From the NCBI RefSeq assembly GCF_000744225.1, contig NZ_JQLN01000005.1:1945001-2009000 (forward strand): a stretch of 64,000 nucleotides of DNA, read 5' to 3'. The first letter of the stretch is position 1. Every line of letters starts with the position of its first letter. The position numbers and the translations under genes were made by a program. Positions 14,104-53,348 of the stretch are shown here, in pieces. The notes under the pieces were generated by a model. That model did not search any database, was not told the DNA's origin, and was given only the letters and a program-made list of their open reading frames with translations. Origin of the DNA: Kitasatospora mediocidica KCTC 9733. Lineage in GTDB: Bacteria > Actinomycetota > Actinomycetes > Streptomycetales > Streptomycetaceae.

Positions 14104-14267
14104 AGGAACCGAGGATAGATGGCAGCCTCGGAGGGGCCGCCATTCGGTGGACTAGGGGGTGTCTGGGTTTGTGTTTCTGGCCGCTCGGGTACACCATGGA
14201 AGTCACGGATCGTTCGCGACCGTGCTAACCCGGTCCGGCTCCTCCCCCCCGAGTCGGACCGTGGATA

Positions 14268-14302
14268 GACGACCCCCGCTCTCCCCCCCGGCGGGGGTCG
14301 TC
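14268..14302. terminator. Strong hairpin upstream of the Tad operon
   Basis: Perfect 12-bp stem (14268-14279 with 14291-14302) with a C-rich 11-base loop. It lies in the spacer between the divergent HAD and ssd genes (14104-14781), so it may end an untracked short transcript or act in a leader rather than end a known gene. Confidence 0.55.
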
Positions 14303-14523
14303 GCATGTCCGGGCCCATTTTGCAAGGGTCTTCAGGGCAGACTGGCGATGAGCCGGGATTCGAGGGGCGACATTTCGCACGAAGGTGTCGGGCCTGACTG
14401 CCCCCTTCGATGACTACGCTGAGTAGCTGACTGCGCATCGTCGCCGACATGCCCGGACGGTTGTCACATCGCTGCCCGGGGCGTCGCCGGAGGGGTGAAA
14501 CGGGTGCCTACGGGTGACGTTGG

Positions 14524-44994: not shown

Positions 44995-45068
44995 GCCGCT
45001 TTAGCTCAGTTGGCCAGAGCAACGCACTCGTAATGCGTAGGTCATGGGTTCGAATCCCATAGGCGGCT
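44995..45068 (+). tRNA. tRNA-Thr (anticodon CGT)
   Basis: A complete 74-base cloverleaf. The acceptor stem GCCGCTT pairs with AGGCGGC; the D arm, anticodon arm ACGCA-CTCGTAA-TGCGT (anticodon CGT at 45029-45031), and T arm with GGTTCGAATCC are intact. No CCA is encoded. The 3' end is a common integration site, but I do not see a second copy of its 3' end in the window. Confidence 0.97.
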
Positions 45069-45072
45069 CCGT

Positions 45073-45109
45073 AAAGGCCCAGGTCAGATAGCCTCTGACC
45101 TGGGCCTTT
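45073..45109 (+). terminator. Terminator of tRNA-Thr
   Basis: Perfect 16-bp stem (45073-45088 with 45094-45109), 5-base loop, then TTTT. It begins 4 bases after the tRNA end. Confidence 0.93.
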
Positions 45110-45352
45110 TGCCTTCCCGTGACCTTTGGTGTCGGGCGGGCGTGAGCGGAAATCGCTTCATGATCACTCCCGGTGGACATTCGGTGGACATTCGTGCAGC
45201 GAGCGTGCACGCCGGTGGGCACGGACTTGATCCCGGTGGCAACGGGTCCGCTCGGCGGCATGTAACAACCCGACAAGCGGGCTGTGGCCGGACTCAGGGA
45301 TGATGTGCGGTGTAGACGGCTGAACGGGATCGCCTTGGGGAGGCGCGAGGCC

Positions 45353-47710: not shown

Positions 47711-47741
47711 TTGAAACGGCCGGCGTGTGATCGTGTATGCT
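47711..47741 (+). promoter_or_regulatory. Candidate promoter of the orphan 5S gene
   Basis: TTGAAA at 47711-47716 and TATGCT at 47736-47741, 19 bases apart (or TGTATG with 17). It lies about 50 bases before the 5S gene. Confidence 0.4.
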
Positions 47742-47789
47742 GACGCCCAGACTTCAGAGCTTGGCGCCGGTCTAGAATCTGCGTCAATC

Positions 47790-47907
47790 TTTCGGTGGTC
47801 ATAGCGAGAGGGAAACGCCCGGTCACATTTCGAACCCGGAAGCTAAGCCTTTCAGCGCCGATGGTACTGCAGAGGGGACTCTGTGGGAGAGTAGGACGCC
47901 GCCGAAT
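47790..47907 (+). rRNA. rrf: Orphan 5S rRNA
   Basis: A complete ~118-base 5S sequence: helix I TTCGGTGG pairs with CCGCCGAA; conserved GGGAAACGCCCGG, CGAACCCGGAAGCTAAGC, GATGGTACTG and GGGAGAGTAGGACGCC are all present. The loop helix CAGAG/CTCTG keeps pairing, so the RNA looks functional. No 23S or 16S sequence lies upstream; the nearest genes are accessory. Its position is known from conserved sequence only; ends are accurate to a few bases. Confidence 0.95.
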
Positions 47908-47916
47908 ATTTGTTAC

Positions 47917-47953
47917 GATTCGCCCCAGTAGATCTCATCTGCTGGGGCGAATC
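47917..47953. terminator. Terminator between the 5S rRNA and the restriction gene
   Basis: A 17-bp stem with one G-T pair (47917-47933 with 47937-47953) and a 3-base loop, 10 bases after the 5S end. It also serves the convergent restriction gene. Confidence 0.92.
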
Positions 47954-47967
47954 CATTCCTGCGCATG

Positions 47968-49080
47968 CTACTCGGCGTTCGAGGTCGAGCTATCGCGCCA
48001 TTCCAAGAGGCCGCTGGGCTCGTCGAGGAACCAGGCAAAAGAGCCGTATGCGAGCTGGGGAAGGCATGTCTTTGCCGTGGACGCATTGCGCGAGGCGAAA
48101 GCGGTCAGGAAGCGGCACTTGTCTTCGGCAATCTCAGAATCCGCCGCCCATTTGAGGATTGCTTCCTTGCGTTGATCGTGGACGGGGCCGTCCGTGGCCA
48201 CGACCTCGATGAACCAGAAGGTTCCGTGAGTTGGGTCAACGTCCGCGATAATGCAGTCAACAAGAAGCACCTTGGGGTCGACGGGCATCCCGAGCTCTTC
48301 GAGGGATTCCTGGTCGTCCGGGTTGATCTTGTCATCGGATTCTGAGATGAAGAGAACGTGAGGGTCCGCGAGGAACTTGGTTGCAAACTCCTCGACTACA
48401 CCCTTAATGATCTCGTTGCTCTTCCCCTTCTTCAGAACGCGGGGCGAGGCGTTGGGCCGCTCAACCTGGATGCCTGTAGCCGTGTTCTTCGCCCGCTTGC
48501 GCTGGGCGTGGGCCCTTGTCTTGCCGGCCTTGTCTAGATTCTTGTCCTGCCACTTCTCAATCTCTGCCTGAAGTTCCTCGCCCTCAAGTGACGGGTCGAA
48601 AAGCGCTGCGAACTCCGGGTTGAATGTATAGCGCGCGTAGGAAGCGGTGGTGTCAATGCCGGAAGTTATCTGGAGGACGTTGTACTTTGCCCACTTCTTG
48701 AGAGTGTCATCCCTGACCTGCTCGCGAGAGTCAGACGCATACCAGCGCTCACCGCGCTGAAAGTTCTCCGCAGCGCAATATTTTTCGACCGCGCCGTGAG
48801 ACTTCATGGCTGCTTTGTAGTAGCCAAGGCGCTCAGCCGACTCCGTGCGAGCGGCAATTGTGTCGCTCATCCAAAGCACGGTGGAGGGGCGGATCGGGTT
48901 GACATTGGCAATCGCGCCCACGTACATCATGGTGAACGCAGTAGCTCCTGCCGCCGGATTGGCGGTGTGCGTGCTACCTGTCAGAGCTGCCGGCAGGATC
49001 CTCTGAAGGCGTTCCTCGTACTCCGTTCGCGACGGCAGGAGGGCAGGCAGGGGTGGCGGAGTGCTATCCGGACTGGTCAC
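47968..49080 (-). CDS. BsuBI/PstI-family type II restriction endonuclease
   Basis: A 370-residue protein. Start GTG 49080 overlaps the methyltransferase stop (GTGA). The C-terminal third has the BsuBI/PstI pattern: VLLVDCIIADVD followed by FIEVVATDG at about 290, then RKEAILKWA and GSFAWFLDEP. This includes the E-x-x-x-T/D acidic core. The N-terminal ~200 residues form the DNA-recognition part. The family cuts CTGCAG, but recognition here is inferred only. G+C is visibly lower than in neighbouring chromosomal genes. Confidence 0.85.
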   Translation of the reverse strand: MTSPDSTPPPLPALLPSRTEYEERLQRILPAALTGSTHTANPAAGATAFTMMYVGAIANVNPIRPSTVLWMSDTIAARTESAERLGYYKAAMKSHGAVEKYCAAENFQRGERWYASDSREQVRDDTLKKWAKYNVLQITSGIDTTASYARYTFNPEFAALFDPSLEGEELQAEIEKWQDKNLDKAGKTRAHAQRKRAKNTATGIQVERPNASPRVLKKGKSNEIIKGVVEEFATKFLADPHVLFISESDDKINPDDQESLEELGMPVDPKVLLVDCIIADVDPTHGTFWFIEVVATDGPVHDQRKEAILKWAADSEIAEDKCRFLTAFASRNASTAKTCLPQLAYGSFAWFLDEPSGLLEWRDSSTSNAE

Positions 49081-50816
49081 GAGGACTGACCATATACGCC
49101 TTCGATCGCTGCCTGCAGGTCTTCCGGAGAGAGCGCTGACCACTCCTGTAGCACGGCGGTGCTTGGAAGTGGCAGAGCAGACAGTTCGTAGGCCGAGACC
49201 GCGACAGAGCCAGTGAGGCACCGGTATAGGCGATCAACAGCTTCGGAGTCGAGGAGCGCGGTCAGCAAGGCCGGGGTCAACGGGCTGTCGTCCTGACTCG
49301 CCGTCAGGACGTTGACGTGGTTCTCTACGACCACACGCCCGCCCCACCGGCCGAGGGCCTCCTGGTCCAAGGCAGCAGCTAGCAGCCGACGTGGCTGTTC
49401 AGGGGCAGTCGTTCGCTGGACTAGAACGGCGGGGCGGTCTAGCACGAGGACGGCCTCGTCCTTCGGCCGGAGGGCCACGTAACGGAGATCATCGCGATTG
49501 GGGTCCTGGTGCAGTTCACCGCCGTCCAGGTCACCAGCCCAGACGATCTTGATTGATGTGGCCTTGGGCTTGCTCGACAGCTGATCCTTGTGCCGATTCC
49601 AGACCAGCGGGCCAGTTGACACAGTCCAGTGATAGTCCGCTAGGCGGTGCGACATTGTCTGCGCTGCCTTGATGAGGGAGTGGTCCTTAGGATCGCGCGG
49701 CAGAAGCCACGGGCCGTCGCCCTGGTCCGGCAGCCGCCCCTTCCCAACGCTCTCCCGTGTAATGGAGCCGTTGACGGTCAGGCGCTCGCATGTGGCTTCG
49801 TTCTTCACGCTGTTGTGCTGGAACGTGGCGAGTACGGTCTCCTGGAGGACGCCCGTGGAGAACACGCCGGTTCGATCCGTGACGTATGTCAGATGCGTCA
49901 GAGGGGCCGTGGTGGACAGGTAGGCGCGAAGACGCTGGAAGTACGAGCCGCCGAGCCAGCCGGCAGGGACCAGAGCGGACATGACACCGCCCGGCGCTAG
50001 GCACTCTGCGGCGGCAGCCATAAAGAGGCCATAGCGGTTCGCATGCCCATAAAGGACATGACTCCACCTCTTGCGGTCCTCGTCAGTGAGGCGGACACGG
50101 CCATAAGGGGGGTTGAGGATGCAGACCTGTACGGGGCGCGGGGGAGGCGTCAGCCCGTCCCCGACTCCGATTAGCGCGGGCAGGATGCTCCGCCGGGCCG
50201 CTGTGATTTGTGCCCAGGTCGGAAGGAGCTCAGCTGCCAGGATGGCATTGCCAAGCCAGACGGCAGCGGCGTCCAGGTCACGACCGCCGATGGCAGACGT
50301 GACCTCGCGGAGGACTTCGGCAGGGGAGCGGTCTGCCTGCGCGGTCAGCCAACCGCGGAGAGCTGGTAGCAGCAGCATCCCGGCTCCGCTCGCAGGATCC
50401 CAAACGAGGCCAGCGGGCGTCTCACCCAAGGTCGTGACGGCTTGGTCGTAGAGCGCAGTGGCCAGGGCAGGCGGGGTGTAGTGCCGCCCGTCGGCGGTCC
50501 GGACAGAACTGTCCAGAGCCGTGACGTAGGCGTTAGCGAGGGCCTCGGGCGAAGCGTCGACGAGGTCTTCCCGCGGGGCGATGCCGATCAAGAGACTCTG
50601 GTCGAAGCCAGACTGCGCGACTGCCTCGTCCAGCCGGAGAGCGCTGGCCGCTCTGAGCCGTACAGCCGATGCGCGTCGCGCCCACCACTCGGGCACGGTA
50701 GCGAGCACCGCTAGCGCTTTCGGAGACAAATCCTTGGTGCCGTTCGCTTCCATCACTGCGCGTTGGGCGCGATTCGTCCGGGCCGTCGGAATCGGTGCTG
50801 CCTCGACGTCAGTCAC
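49077..50816 (-). CDS. N6-adenine DNA methyltransferase paired with the BsuBI/PstI-like enzyme
   Basis: A 579-residue protein, start GTG 50816 after GGGAGG. Motif I is DPASGAG (140-146) and motif IV is NPPY (235-238), the gamma-type N6-adenine arrangement. RHYTPPALATALYDQ precedes motif I as in many gamma-class enzymes. Gene order, strand and GTGA coupling to the endonuclease make this the protective partner of the restriction gene. Confidence 0.9.
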   Translation of the reverse strand: MTDVEAAPIPTARTNRAQRAVMEANGTKDLSPKALAVLATVPEWWARRASAVRLRAASALRLDEAVAQSGFDQSLLIGIAPREDLVDASPEALANAYVTALDSSVRTADGRHYTPPALATALYDQAVTTLGETPAGLVWDPASGAGMLLLPALRGWLTAQADRSPAEVLREVTSAIGGRDLDAAAVWLGNAILAAELLPTWAQITAARRSILPALIGVGDGLTPPPRPVQVCILNPPYGRVRLTDEDRKRWSHVLYGHANRYGLFMAAAAECLAPGGVMSALVPAGWLGGSYFQRLRAYLSTTAPLTHLTYVTDRTGVFSTGVLQETVLATFQHNSVKNEATCERLTVNGSITRESVGKGRLPDQGDGPWLLPRDPKDHSLIKAAQTMSHRLADYHWTVSTGPLVWNRHKDQLSSKPKATSIKIVWAGDLDGGELHQDPNRDDLRYVALRPKDEAVLVLDRPAVLVQRTTAPEQPRRLLAAALDQEALGRWGGRVVVENHVNVLTASQDDSPLTPALLTALLDSEAVDRLYRCLTGSVAVSAYELSALPLPSTAVLQEWSALSPEDLQAAIEGVYGQSS

Positions 50817-51084
50817 CTGAGAGGTCCTCCCGTTTTCGTTACTTGATCGTTGCTTCTCGGCTCGGCCTGCCGAGCTGCTCAGGTGTCCAGCTGCAGGCTG
50901 CCCACCTGGCGATTCTCCGGGGCGGCCCGTTTCGGTACCTTGCGAGGATGCCACATCCGCCTCTTTGGGATGAGCTGGTCTGCCTTTCGCATGTCTGCGT
51001 CGCGGGGCCAGCGGGTTGGAAGGGAGAAGGGGGCAGCGCCCGCCCTGGGGCGGACGGACGCTGCTTCGACATGGCCAGGCGCTC
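50817..51084. other. Spacer between methyltransferase and integrase
   Basis: About 268 bases without a credible gene. It may hold the methyltransferase promoter and, given its place after the integrase stop, could contain an attachment site, but I see no repeat that would prove one. Confidence 0.35.
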
Positions 51085-52692
51085 CTATGCCGACTCTGCC
51101 GTGCCCGGTTCAGTCGTCTTTCGCGGAGGTGCGAGCCTCGGGAGACGCAAAGCACCATGATCGGTGACTACTGACAGCGTTGGGCGGCGACTGTGGGGGA
51201 CAAGCTGGGCGACCTTCTCGGCCGCATCCTTCGCCAGGTCGTCGAGGACGGTCTGGTAGGTGTCTCGGGTGATCCGGGTGTCCGAGTGGCCGAGGGTCTC
51301 GGAGACGACCTTGATGTCGACCCCGGCGGCGAGCATGAGCGTGGCCGCGACGTGGCGAAGGTCGTGGAGACGGATCGGGGGCAGGCCGGCGGCGGCAACC
51401 AGGCGCTCGAACAGGTCGGACATTTTGCCCGGGTGAATGATCGAGCCGTCCTCGTTGGTGAAGACCCGACCGGTGTCCTGCCAGGCGTCACCCCATTCGA
51501 GTTTCTCCTGCTGCTGGCGCTCCCACTGGAGGTCGAGGTGCTGGTCGGTTTCGTCGTCGAGTGCGAGCCAGCGAACGCCGGAGGCGGTCTTCGGGGCGCC
51601 TTCGTAGACGTCCCAGCCATCCTGGATGAGCTGGGTGGCGATGGCGATGGCCTTCACGGCCTTGTTGCGGTCTTCCCAGCGAAGGCCGCAGGTCTCGCCG
51701 CGACGAGTGCCGCGGAAGGCGATGGTGCGGTAGTAGAGGTAGAAGCGGTGCTCGGCGATGAAGTCGAGGAAGATCGCGGTCTGGTCCGGGGTCCAGACCA
51801 TGACGGGGCTCGGCTTCTCGCCGGTCTCCTTCCACCGGACGATTCGTTCGGCGGTCCAGACGAGAGCCTTGGGCTTGGTGCCAGGCAGCAGCTCGACGTG
51901 TGCGGCCGGGTTGAAGGGCGGCATCTGCTGCTGGGCGATGGCGACGTTGAGGGCGGCGCGCAGGGTGTCCCGGATGTGAGGCTGGGTGTTCAACCCGGTG
52001 ATGCGGCGGAACGGCGGCATCTGGTCCAGCTGGGCCTTTAGCCACTTACGGCGTGCCCGGTTCTCCGCACCCTTCCACGGGGTCGCGTCCAACTCGGCCT
52101 TGACCGCGCGCCGTTGCTCGTTCTGCTCCTGGATCTCGATGTTCGCCTCGTTGATGTCGTCGAACATCTTGCTGACGTGCTGAACGCGGAGCTTGTCGAG
52201 CCGGTGGCGGCCAAGGTGGGGGTCGAGGTGGTTGCGGATATCGCAGTCGTAGCGCTTCCAGCCGCCCCGGCTGAGCCGCTTGCGGCCGTCCAGCCATATA
52301 GCGAGCCATTCACCGACGGTGATCTTGGTATTGAGCGGCTGGCCGGTGGCGACCCGACGGCGGACCTCGTCGTAGTCCGGGAGCGGCGCCTTCTCCTTGA
52401 GGCAGCTCTCGAGGAGGTCGCTCATCTGGAGTTGGCCCCAGGCATCGTCCTCGTCCGGGATGGCGAGGAGAGCGCGGACCTTGTCCAGTTCCTCCTGGGC
52501 CTTGGTCGAGGTCTCGAAGCCTCCGCGCCGGAAGCGGCGGCGCCGGCCTTCCTGGTCGGGCTCCAGCTCCTGGAAGACCGTCCAGACGCCGTGGCGGCGG
52601 TTCGACTTGAGCTTGGGGCACGACGCCCCGTACTCCTTGCCGGTGCCGGGGTTGGTGCAGCGGCACCGGCGGGAGATCGTGCCGTTCTTCAC
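51085..52692 (-). CDS. int: Tyrosine recombinase (integrase)
   Basis: A 535-residue actinobacterial integrase. Start ATG 52692 overlaps the XRE gene stop (ATGA). Catalytic features: RGTRRGETCGLRW (first Arg), HDLRH at about 443 (second Arg box), LGHSDTRIT, and the nucleophile Tyr479 in DTYQTV. A CxC...C block near the N-terminus (RRCRCTNPGTGKEYGASC) may bind metal. It would insert or excise the mobile element that carries this region. Confidence 0.95.
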   Translation of the reverse strand: MKNGTISRRCRCTNPGTGKEYGASCPKLKSNRRHGVWTVFQELEPDQEGRRRRFRRGGFETSTKAQEELDKVRALLAIPDEDDAWGQLQMSDLLESCLKEKAPLPDYDEVRRRVATGQPLNTKITVGEWLAIWLDGRKRLSRGGWKRYDCDIRNHLDPHLGRHRLDKLRVQHVSKMFDDINEANIEIQEQNEQRRAVKAELDATPWKGAENRARRKWLKAQLDQMPPFRRITGLNTQPHIRDTLRAALNVAIAQQQMPPFNPAAHVELLPGTKPKALVWTAERIVRWKETGEKPSPVMVWTPDQTAIFLDFIAEHRFYLYYRTIAFRGTRRGETCGLRWEDRNKAVKAIAIATQLIQDGWDVYEGAPKTASGVRWLALDDETDQHLDLQWERQQQEKLEWGDAWQDTGRVFTNEDGSIIHPGKMSDLFERLVAAAGLPPIRLHDLRHVAATLMLAAGVDIKVVSETLGHSDTRITRDTYQTVLDDLAKDAAEKVAQLVPHSRRPTLSVVTDHGALRLPRLAPPRKTTEPGTAESA

Positions 52693-53348
52693 TCTCTGTC
52701 CTCTATACGTCCTTCGTCCGCGGTCTGGTCGACGCCGGTAAGGCCGTCGGGGAGGGCGGGCGGGACGAGACCCCGCTCACGCATCCGCGTCCGGAAGGAG
52801 GAAAGCTCCTTGCGGTCGGCTTCCGCGTACTCCTCATAACCGGCGGCCAGCTCCAGCAGGGCGGCTCTACGGGCCGGGGCCGGGGTGGTGTTGGCGGCCC
52901 GGCGGCGGTCTGTGGCCAAGACGGCAGATGCTCTGGCCGCCGCCACGAGGTCGCCGTGCTCCCGGAAGGTGTCCAGCACGTCCCGAGGACTGCCAGGCGG
53001 GGCCGGTTCCGTGATCGGCGTCTCCCCGGTGAACCACGCGAGGGCGTCCCACGTCGAGACCTCCCTGCCAGGGAGTACCTCCACGGTCTCGGTGGTACCG
53101 AGGGGGAAGAGGAGAGCTACTGGCGGTACGCCGAGCGAGTCCGCAAGGGCGAAGAAGTCGGTGAGCGTGATGCTTGTTCGGCGGCCCGATTCCAGGTTCT
53201 TGATCGTCTGGTCGGTGATCTCCGGTAGGCCGCGTTCGGCGCAGCGCTCGGCTACGGCCGGCATCGTGAGGCCGGCCGCCTTGCGCGCCTCGCGCATGGA
53301 GTGCGCGACCTGGGCGGTGAACGTCGTCGACCAAAGGTCTGAGGTCAT
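52689..53348 (-). CDS. XRE-family regulator beside the integrase
   Basis: A 219-residue protein, ATG 53348. The HTH is RKAAGLTMPAVAERCAERGLPEITDQTIKNLESGRR, typical of XRE repressors. The C-terminal half is Ala/Arg-rich and has no known domain. It probably controls int and the divergent excisionase-like gene through the inverted repeat at 53353-53376. Confidence 0.88.
   Translation of the reverse strand: MTSDLWSTTFTAQVAHSMREARKAAGLTMPAVAERCAERGLPEITDQTIKNLESGRRTSITLTDFFALADSLGVPPVALLFPLGTTETVEVLPGREVSTWDALAWFTGETPITEPAPPGSPRDVLDTFREHGDLVAAARASAVLATDRRRAANTTPAPARRAALLELAAGYEEYAEADRKELSSFRTRMRERGLVPPALPDGLTGVDQTADEGRIEDRE

Follow-up and report, generated by a model that had tools for sequence, protein, structure and literature searches.

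A 5S rRNA gene normally closes an rrn operon, and rRNA genes are a textbook case of vertical inheritance. The genome of Kitasatospora mediocidica KCTC 9733 therefore raises a question: where does a complete 5S gene that stands alone among accessory genes come from, and what keeps it intact? We address this question for the window, the whole 64-kb stretch of DNA that was analyzed here, to which all positions given without a genome or locus handle refer.

A lone 5S gene of another lineage than the operon copies

The Rfam 5S rRNA model (RF00001) matches positions 47791-47907 of the plus strand over its full length (model positions 1-120) with the conserved fold and a score of 104.5 bits, against a gathering score of 38 (E 7.8e-22). 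There is no Rfam match to 23S anywhere in the 64-kb window and, by alignment, no 23S tail before the gene, which is thus not a member of an rrn operon in the sense of a 5S following 16S and 23S. Across the whole genome (8.68 Mb) we count 11 copies of 5S, ten of them directly behind 23S sequence, with the window copy as the only unlinked one. The first-pass annotation of this DNA, which described a complete 5S gene without a 23S upstream, is borne out by these results, and the comparison with the other copies that it proposed sets the window copy apart from all ten. Nine operon genes are identical, the tenth differs from them by the compensated pair G16A/C63T, and the orphan differs from the nine at 8 of 117 bases with helix pairing kept. 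Elsewhere in the window, a 6C RNA is found at 14229-14306 (plus strand, 57.2 bits).

Two origins can be discarded. A duplicate of a host 5S gene is ruled out by the eight differences from nine identical copies, which point to another 5S lineage. A split rrn operon, one of the explanations offered by the first-pass annotation, is ruled out by the ten 23S-5S pairs of the genome and by a leader unlike rrn leaders; its matches to the ten rrn upstream stretches are only 9-12 bases long, as by chance. A misassembly at 47.7 kb, which would have undone the observation, is unlikely because the copy is unlike all ten operon copies, lies inside a 2.73 Mb contig, and recurs with its leader in G081, a second genome of the genus that is described below.

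Signals around the gene

A promoter-like pair and a strong terminator had also been reported on first inspection. The pair is present as described on the plus strand (47711-47741), with TTGAAA at 47711-47716, TATGCT at 47736-47741 and a spacer of 19. It was read from the sequence and is weak on its own because a consensus promoter scan with spacers of 16-18 lists no promoter there. Likewise, folding predicts a terminator-like hairpin with a 17-pair stem at 47917-47953 (plus strand), beginning 10 bases past the 5S end; it has no T-run, and a terminator scan of the window does not list it. Both signals gain weight because similar ones recur at four orphan 5S genes, namely the window copy and three from other genomes. 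In all four, TGTA occurs a single time in the 100 bases upstream, at -49 to -59 (at -59 in G081), and a G+C-rich inverted repeat follows the gene, as judged by folding in the window and G081, from a hairpin scan in G134 and by eye in G115, where the downstream scan lists only a small hairpin. The G081 hairpin has the same form as that of the window and another sequence. Between promoter-like pair and gene lies a 22-base leader element (47748-47769, plus strand) that is matched exactly in the leader of the G081 orphan. This element has one match in the window, where none is expected, and among 175 loci it is found only in the window's own and in that of G081.

A restriction operon in an accessory region

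Four overlapping open reading frames on the minus strand head towards the 5S gene. They encode an HTH regulator (52689-53348; PF01381/PF13560) that overlaps the integrase frame, a tyrosine integrase (51085-52692; PF00589, E 5.5e-15, and PF14659), an Eco57I-type DNA methylase of uncertain start (49077-51158; PF07669, E 2.7e-7) and a BsuBI/PstI-type restriction endonuclease, also of uncertain start (47968-49221; PF06616, E 9.2e-30, and PF17728, E 2.8e-11). With a PF06616 endonuclease and an Eco57I-type methylase side by side, the operon has the make-up of known BsuBI/PstI-type restriction-modification systems; it differs from them in that a 5S unit adjoins the endonuclease gene on its 3' side, an arrangement found at 3 of 24 loci (see below) and for which we found no description in the literature searched. 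Between the stop codon of the endonuclease gene and the 3' end of the 5S there are 60 bp, which include the hairpin. The link to the endonuclease is absent from the first-pass annotation.

The region has the marks of accessory DNA. G+C content is 0.71-0.79 at 40 to 45 kb and 0.58-0.72 at 45 to 50 kb, with the minimum at 48-49 kb. At 44995-45070 (plus strand) ARAGORN finds a tRNA-Thr(CGT), which we regard as an integration hotspot because copies of its 3' part recur in relatives and 102 kb downstream here. Using the gene upstream of the tRNA together with the tRNA as query, we obtained a whole or partial match in every one of the 70 genus genomes, the window's own included, and among the matches listed more than 10 genus genomes have the 3'-part copy again within about 30 kb. 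The partial repeats in the window's own genome lie 102 kb (85% over 89 bases) and 105 kb (94% over 33 bases) downstream; the first of these distances corresponds to the site at 44995-45125 and its repeat at G000:C5:2092353-2092441. This pattern suggests that the surroundings of the tRNA-Thr may be an array of elements or an old island, not one clean element. Synteny with relatives is in line with an accessory location: no 5S is found beside the tRNA-Thr in any of 33 fetched pieces, made up of 29 loci taken with flanks of 1.5 kb and of four stretches of greater length. Of the earlier suggestion that the gene is a duplicate carried by a mobile element, the place is thus upheld by the hotspot, the adjoining integrase, the lowered G+C content and the lack of a 5S in the fetched pieces of relatives, and the duplication of a host gene is not, the orphan being of another 5S lineage.

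Orphan 5S genes in other genomes

We searched 394 Streptomycetaceae genomes, drawn from a larger group, with the gene plus its flanks and scored two candidates per genome. Among the matches listed, only G081, of the same genus, matches the upstream flank besides the window, and further orphans may exist beyond these matches. The G081 orphan (L099 10007-10123) shows 98.3% identity with the window copy and has 7 of its 8 changes in common. Right after the hairpin comes what is left of a PstI-type endonuclease, a C-terminal stub with 10 of 20 residues identical (its score is 50, against a best score of 38 in 2000 shuffles), and then the remnant of an IS4-type transposase. In G081 the 5S gene has thus persisted beyond the loss of the restriction gene.

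When 394 genomes of the family were searched with the endonuclease protein, six genomes matched. Two of these besides the window's own genome, Streptacidiphilus jiangxiensis (G134, another genus) and G115 (a third genus), carry a 5S immediately after the endonuclease gene, with no 23S in the fetched stretch. The 5S and the endonuclease gene are convergent in the window, G081 and G115 and co-directional in G134. A distance of 43-72 bp separates the 5S from the stop codon of the endonuclease gene in the three intact loci. The endonucleases of G134 and G115 belong to two different subfamilies. Their orphan 5S genes are 92.3% alike and at most 88.9% alike to any of 19 operon 5S genes, which came from 14 genomes other than G081, G134 and G115, so that foreignness is judged there against relatives. 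Comparison of neighborhoods by tblastx gave background only.

Several other features were seen near these loci. The orphan of G081 lies 350 bp behind an RNase P RNA gene (L099 9255-9659), and a PstI-type locus of Streptomyces cylindrosporus (L115 6001-7047) lies 2 kb behind another (L115 3521-3926); the RNase P RNA gene is perhaps another hotspot. A large GHKL-type ATPase is encoded near the PstI-type genes of G115 (L147 6313-8352, by Pfam) and G153 (L111 11804-13873, by eye).

Pairing and conservation of the 5S body

Relative to the operon 5S, the window copy has full pair exchanges at 17-62 and 83-90, pairing-preserving changes at 18-61 and 34-42, and no new non-standard pair. It contains 2 non-standard pairs, compared with a mean of 5.3 under random change, and 2.2% of simulations are as good. 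For G081, G134 and G115 the corresponding values are 2.2%, 0.7% and 1.2%, with the operon 5S of the window genome as the starting sequence for all four orphans. Beyond the non-standard pairs of the operon 5S, G134 has one more and G115 two more; two helix III pairs are non-standard in both, as is one helix I pair in G115.

The window and G081 also allow gene and leader to be compared. Since their split, 2 of 117 sites have changed in the 5S and 21 of 78 columns in the leader (P 8e-8). Together with the retained pairing, this conservation of the gene over its leader bears the signature of selection for a functional 5S, despite the ten 5S genes of the host.

How strong is the link to PstI-type genes?

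To place the pairing in context, we assembled 24 distinct PstI-type loci (27 fetched, 3 duplicates removed by alignment), of which 6 came from the family search, 12 new ones from 84,980 species genomes and 6 new ones from a 394-genome class sample. A 5S is carried by 3 of the 24, the remaining 21 being without; these include G550, which is cut short by its contig ahead of the gene's 3' end and is counted as lacking a 5S. Of the 24, G546 and G426 are partial matches. Outside the 24 stand the stub of G081, which the protein search did not detect, and two plasmid PstI-type loci that show no 5S in an annotation omitting RNA genes. A permissive Rfam scan of ten sources, representing nine distinct PstI-type loci, revealed no hidden 5S remnants. 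Because 21 of 24 loci show none, the 5S is no fixed part of BsuBI/PstI-type restriction-modification.

As a control we counted 5S genes and 23S ends per genome in 34 near-complete family genomes (14 of the genus, 20 others). These contain 270 5S genes (134 and 136, the latter including one fragment at a contig end) and 134 and 137 23S ends, and in no genome does the number of 5S genes exceed that of 23S ends. Two arrangements came to light among the genomes. G105 has a 23S 3' end without a 5S (G105:C1:436008-436242) and 7 such ends against 6 5S genes. In G145 (G145:C1:1392004-1395106), two 5S genes separated by about 3 kb occupy opposite strands; a 23S end accompanies each of them, and they represent two rrn operons end to end.

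Random placement in the genome cannot well account for the presence of two 5S lineages no more than about 75 bp from a PstI-type gene, and stray 5S genes may be generally enriched in mobile islands. Given that three further bacteria repeat the pairing, a ribosomal component appears to move together with a defence system.

Comparison with known systems

Orphan 5S genes have been seen in other settings. In Francisella, the accessible text of one report describes an orphan 5S gene in all seven strains compared, as an ordinary chromosomal trait (PMC2737636). By that account the two cases are alike in having a 5S outside the rrn operons, whereas the window 5S lies in an accessory region beside restriction genes and is of a lineage unlike that of its host. 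The Bacteroides phage LoVEphage (OY731433.1) is a second parallel, with a single annotated 5S gene on a mobile genome (L098 4004-4109) among phage genes that include a DNA methyltransferase; it differs in phylum, and no PstI-type endonuclease is annotated in the 8 kb seen. A term search of the accessible text of the LoVEphage paper finds no discussion of the 5S (PMC8525569). Among phage records we obtained four weak 5S matches: two belong to LoVEphage, and the other two lie at the very beginning of records that carry no annotation. Three scans of viral contigs for exact patterns gave no match to the 5S. Plasmids can likewise carry rRNA on accessory DNA (161 have a 5S match), with the difference that in all five actinobacterial plasmids opened a 23S lies upstream of the 5S. 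In the literature searched, consisting mostly of titles and the openings of abstracts, we saw no description of a 5S gene tied to restriction-modification; the wording "additional 5S rRNA" appears in the accessible portions of several genome announcements, one of them for a Streptomyces.

A model for the orphan 5S

Based on these data, we propose that the orphan is probably a self-contained 5S unit of a mobile lineage, kept by selection and recurrently found behind PstI-type restriction genes, that provides a minority variant of ribosomal 5S. The unit would consist of promoter, short leader, 5S gene and hairpin terminator, would not derive from the host 5S, and would have lodged, as part of a horizontally moving lineage, beside an operon that combines PstI-type restriction-modification with an integrase. 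The unit would be transcribed independently from TGTATGCT, and the transcript, released by the trimming of ordinary 5S processing, would fold as 5S rRNA. Most likely this RNA would join some 50S subunits, so that the cell would have a minority form of 5S, and a benefit to the element or to the host would keep the gene intact although the host has ten others.

The main rival is that the gene is a passive passenger, an actinomycete chromosomal 5S captured by a mobile element and not yet changed beyond recognition, and that it is near the restriction gene only in that both reside in mobile islands. The 21 loci without a 5S and the hosts' possession of their own 5S genes fit this explanation, but it sits poorly with a 5S conserved far above the leader between the window and G081, with pairing retained better than random in all four orphans and with two separate 5S lineages at the same type of gene, and we consider it unlikely. 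A regulatory use is more doubtful still. A strong 5S-type promoter and a hairpin might act as a convergent terminator or antisense brake on the restriction gene, the 5S product being secondary; the convergent order with a hairpin in between in the window, G081 and G115 would suit such a use, the shared direction in G134 would not, and the conservation of the 5S body would be left unexplained.

The remaining alternatives have very little to recommend them. The first-pass annotation raised the idea of an integration landmark, in which the 5S gene is the attachment or recombination site of the element. An integrase gene does lie 3 kb off, but the window holds no repeat at least 14 bases long of the 5S or its flank, the repeat that resembles an attachment site belongs to the tRNA-Thr, and no integrase is found among the ten G115 and G134 and four G081 neighbor proteins scanned, which makes the idea hard to sustain. 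A remnant of an rrn operon that lost its 16S and 23S would agree with the usual terminal place of 5S in such operons and is scarcely tenable, being contradicted by the leader, by the different lineage of the orphan and by the ten 23S-5S pairs.

A stronger form of the mobile, selected 5S unit that we favor would give the 5S a working role within a mobile defence cassette, in which the element supplies its own variant of a universal ribosome component and selection keeps the pair together. The variant might, for instance, escape a nuclease or factor aimed at the host 5S, or bias the ribosomes of the carrier cell. We regard this extension as rather improbable. If the proposed model is correct, a 5S gene that travels by itself, is maintained by selection alongside ten host copies and settles repeatedly behind one type of restriction gene would represent a new route to ribosome heterogeneity and a new type of cargo for defence islands.
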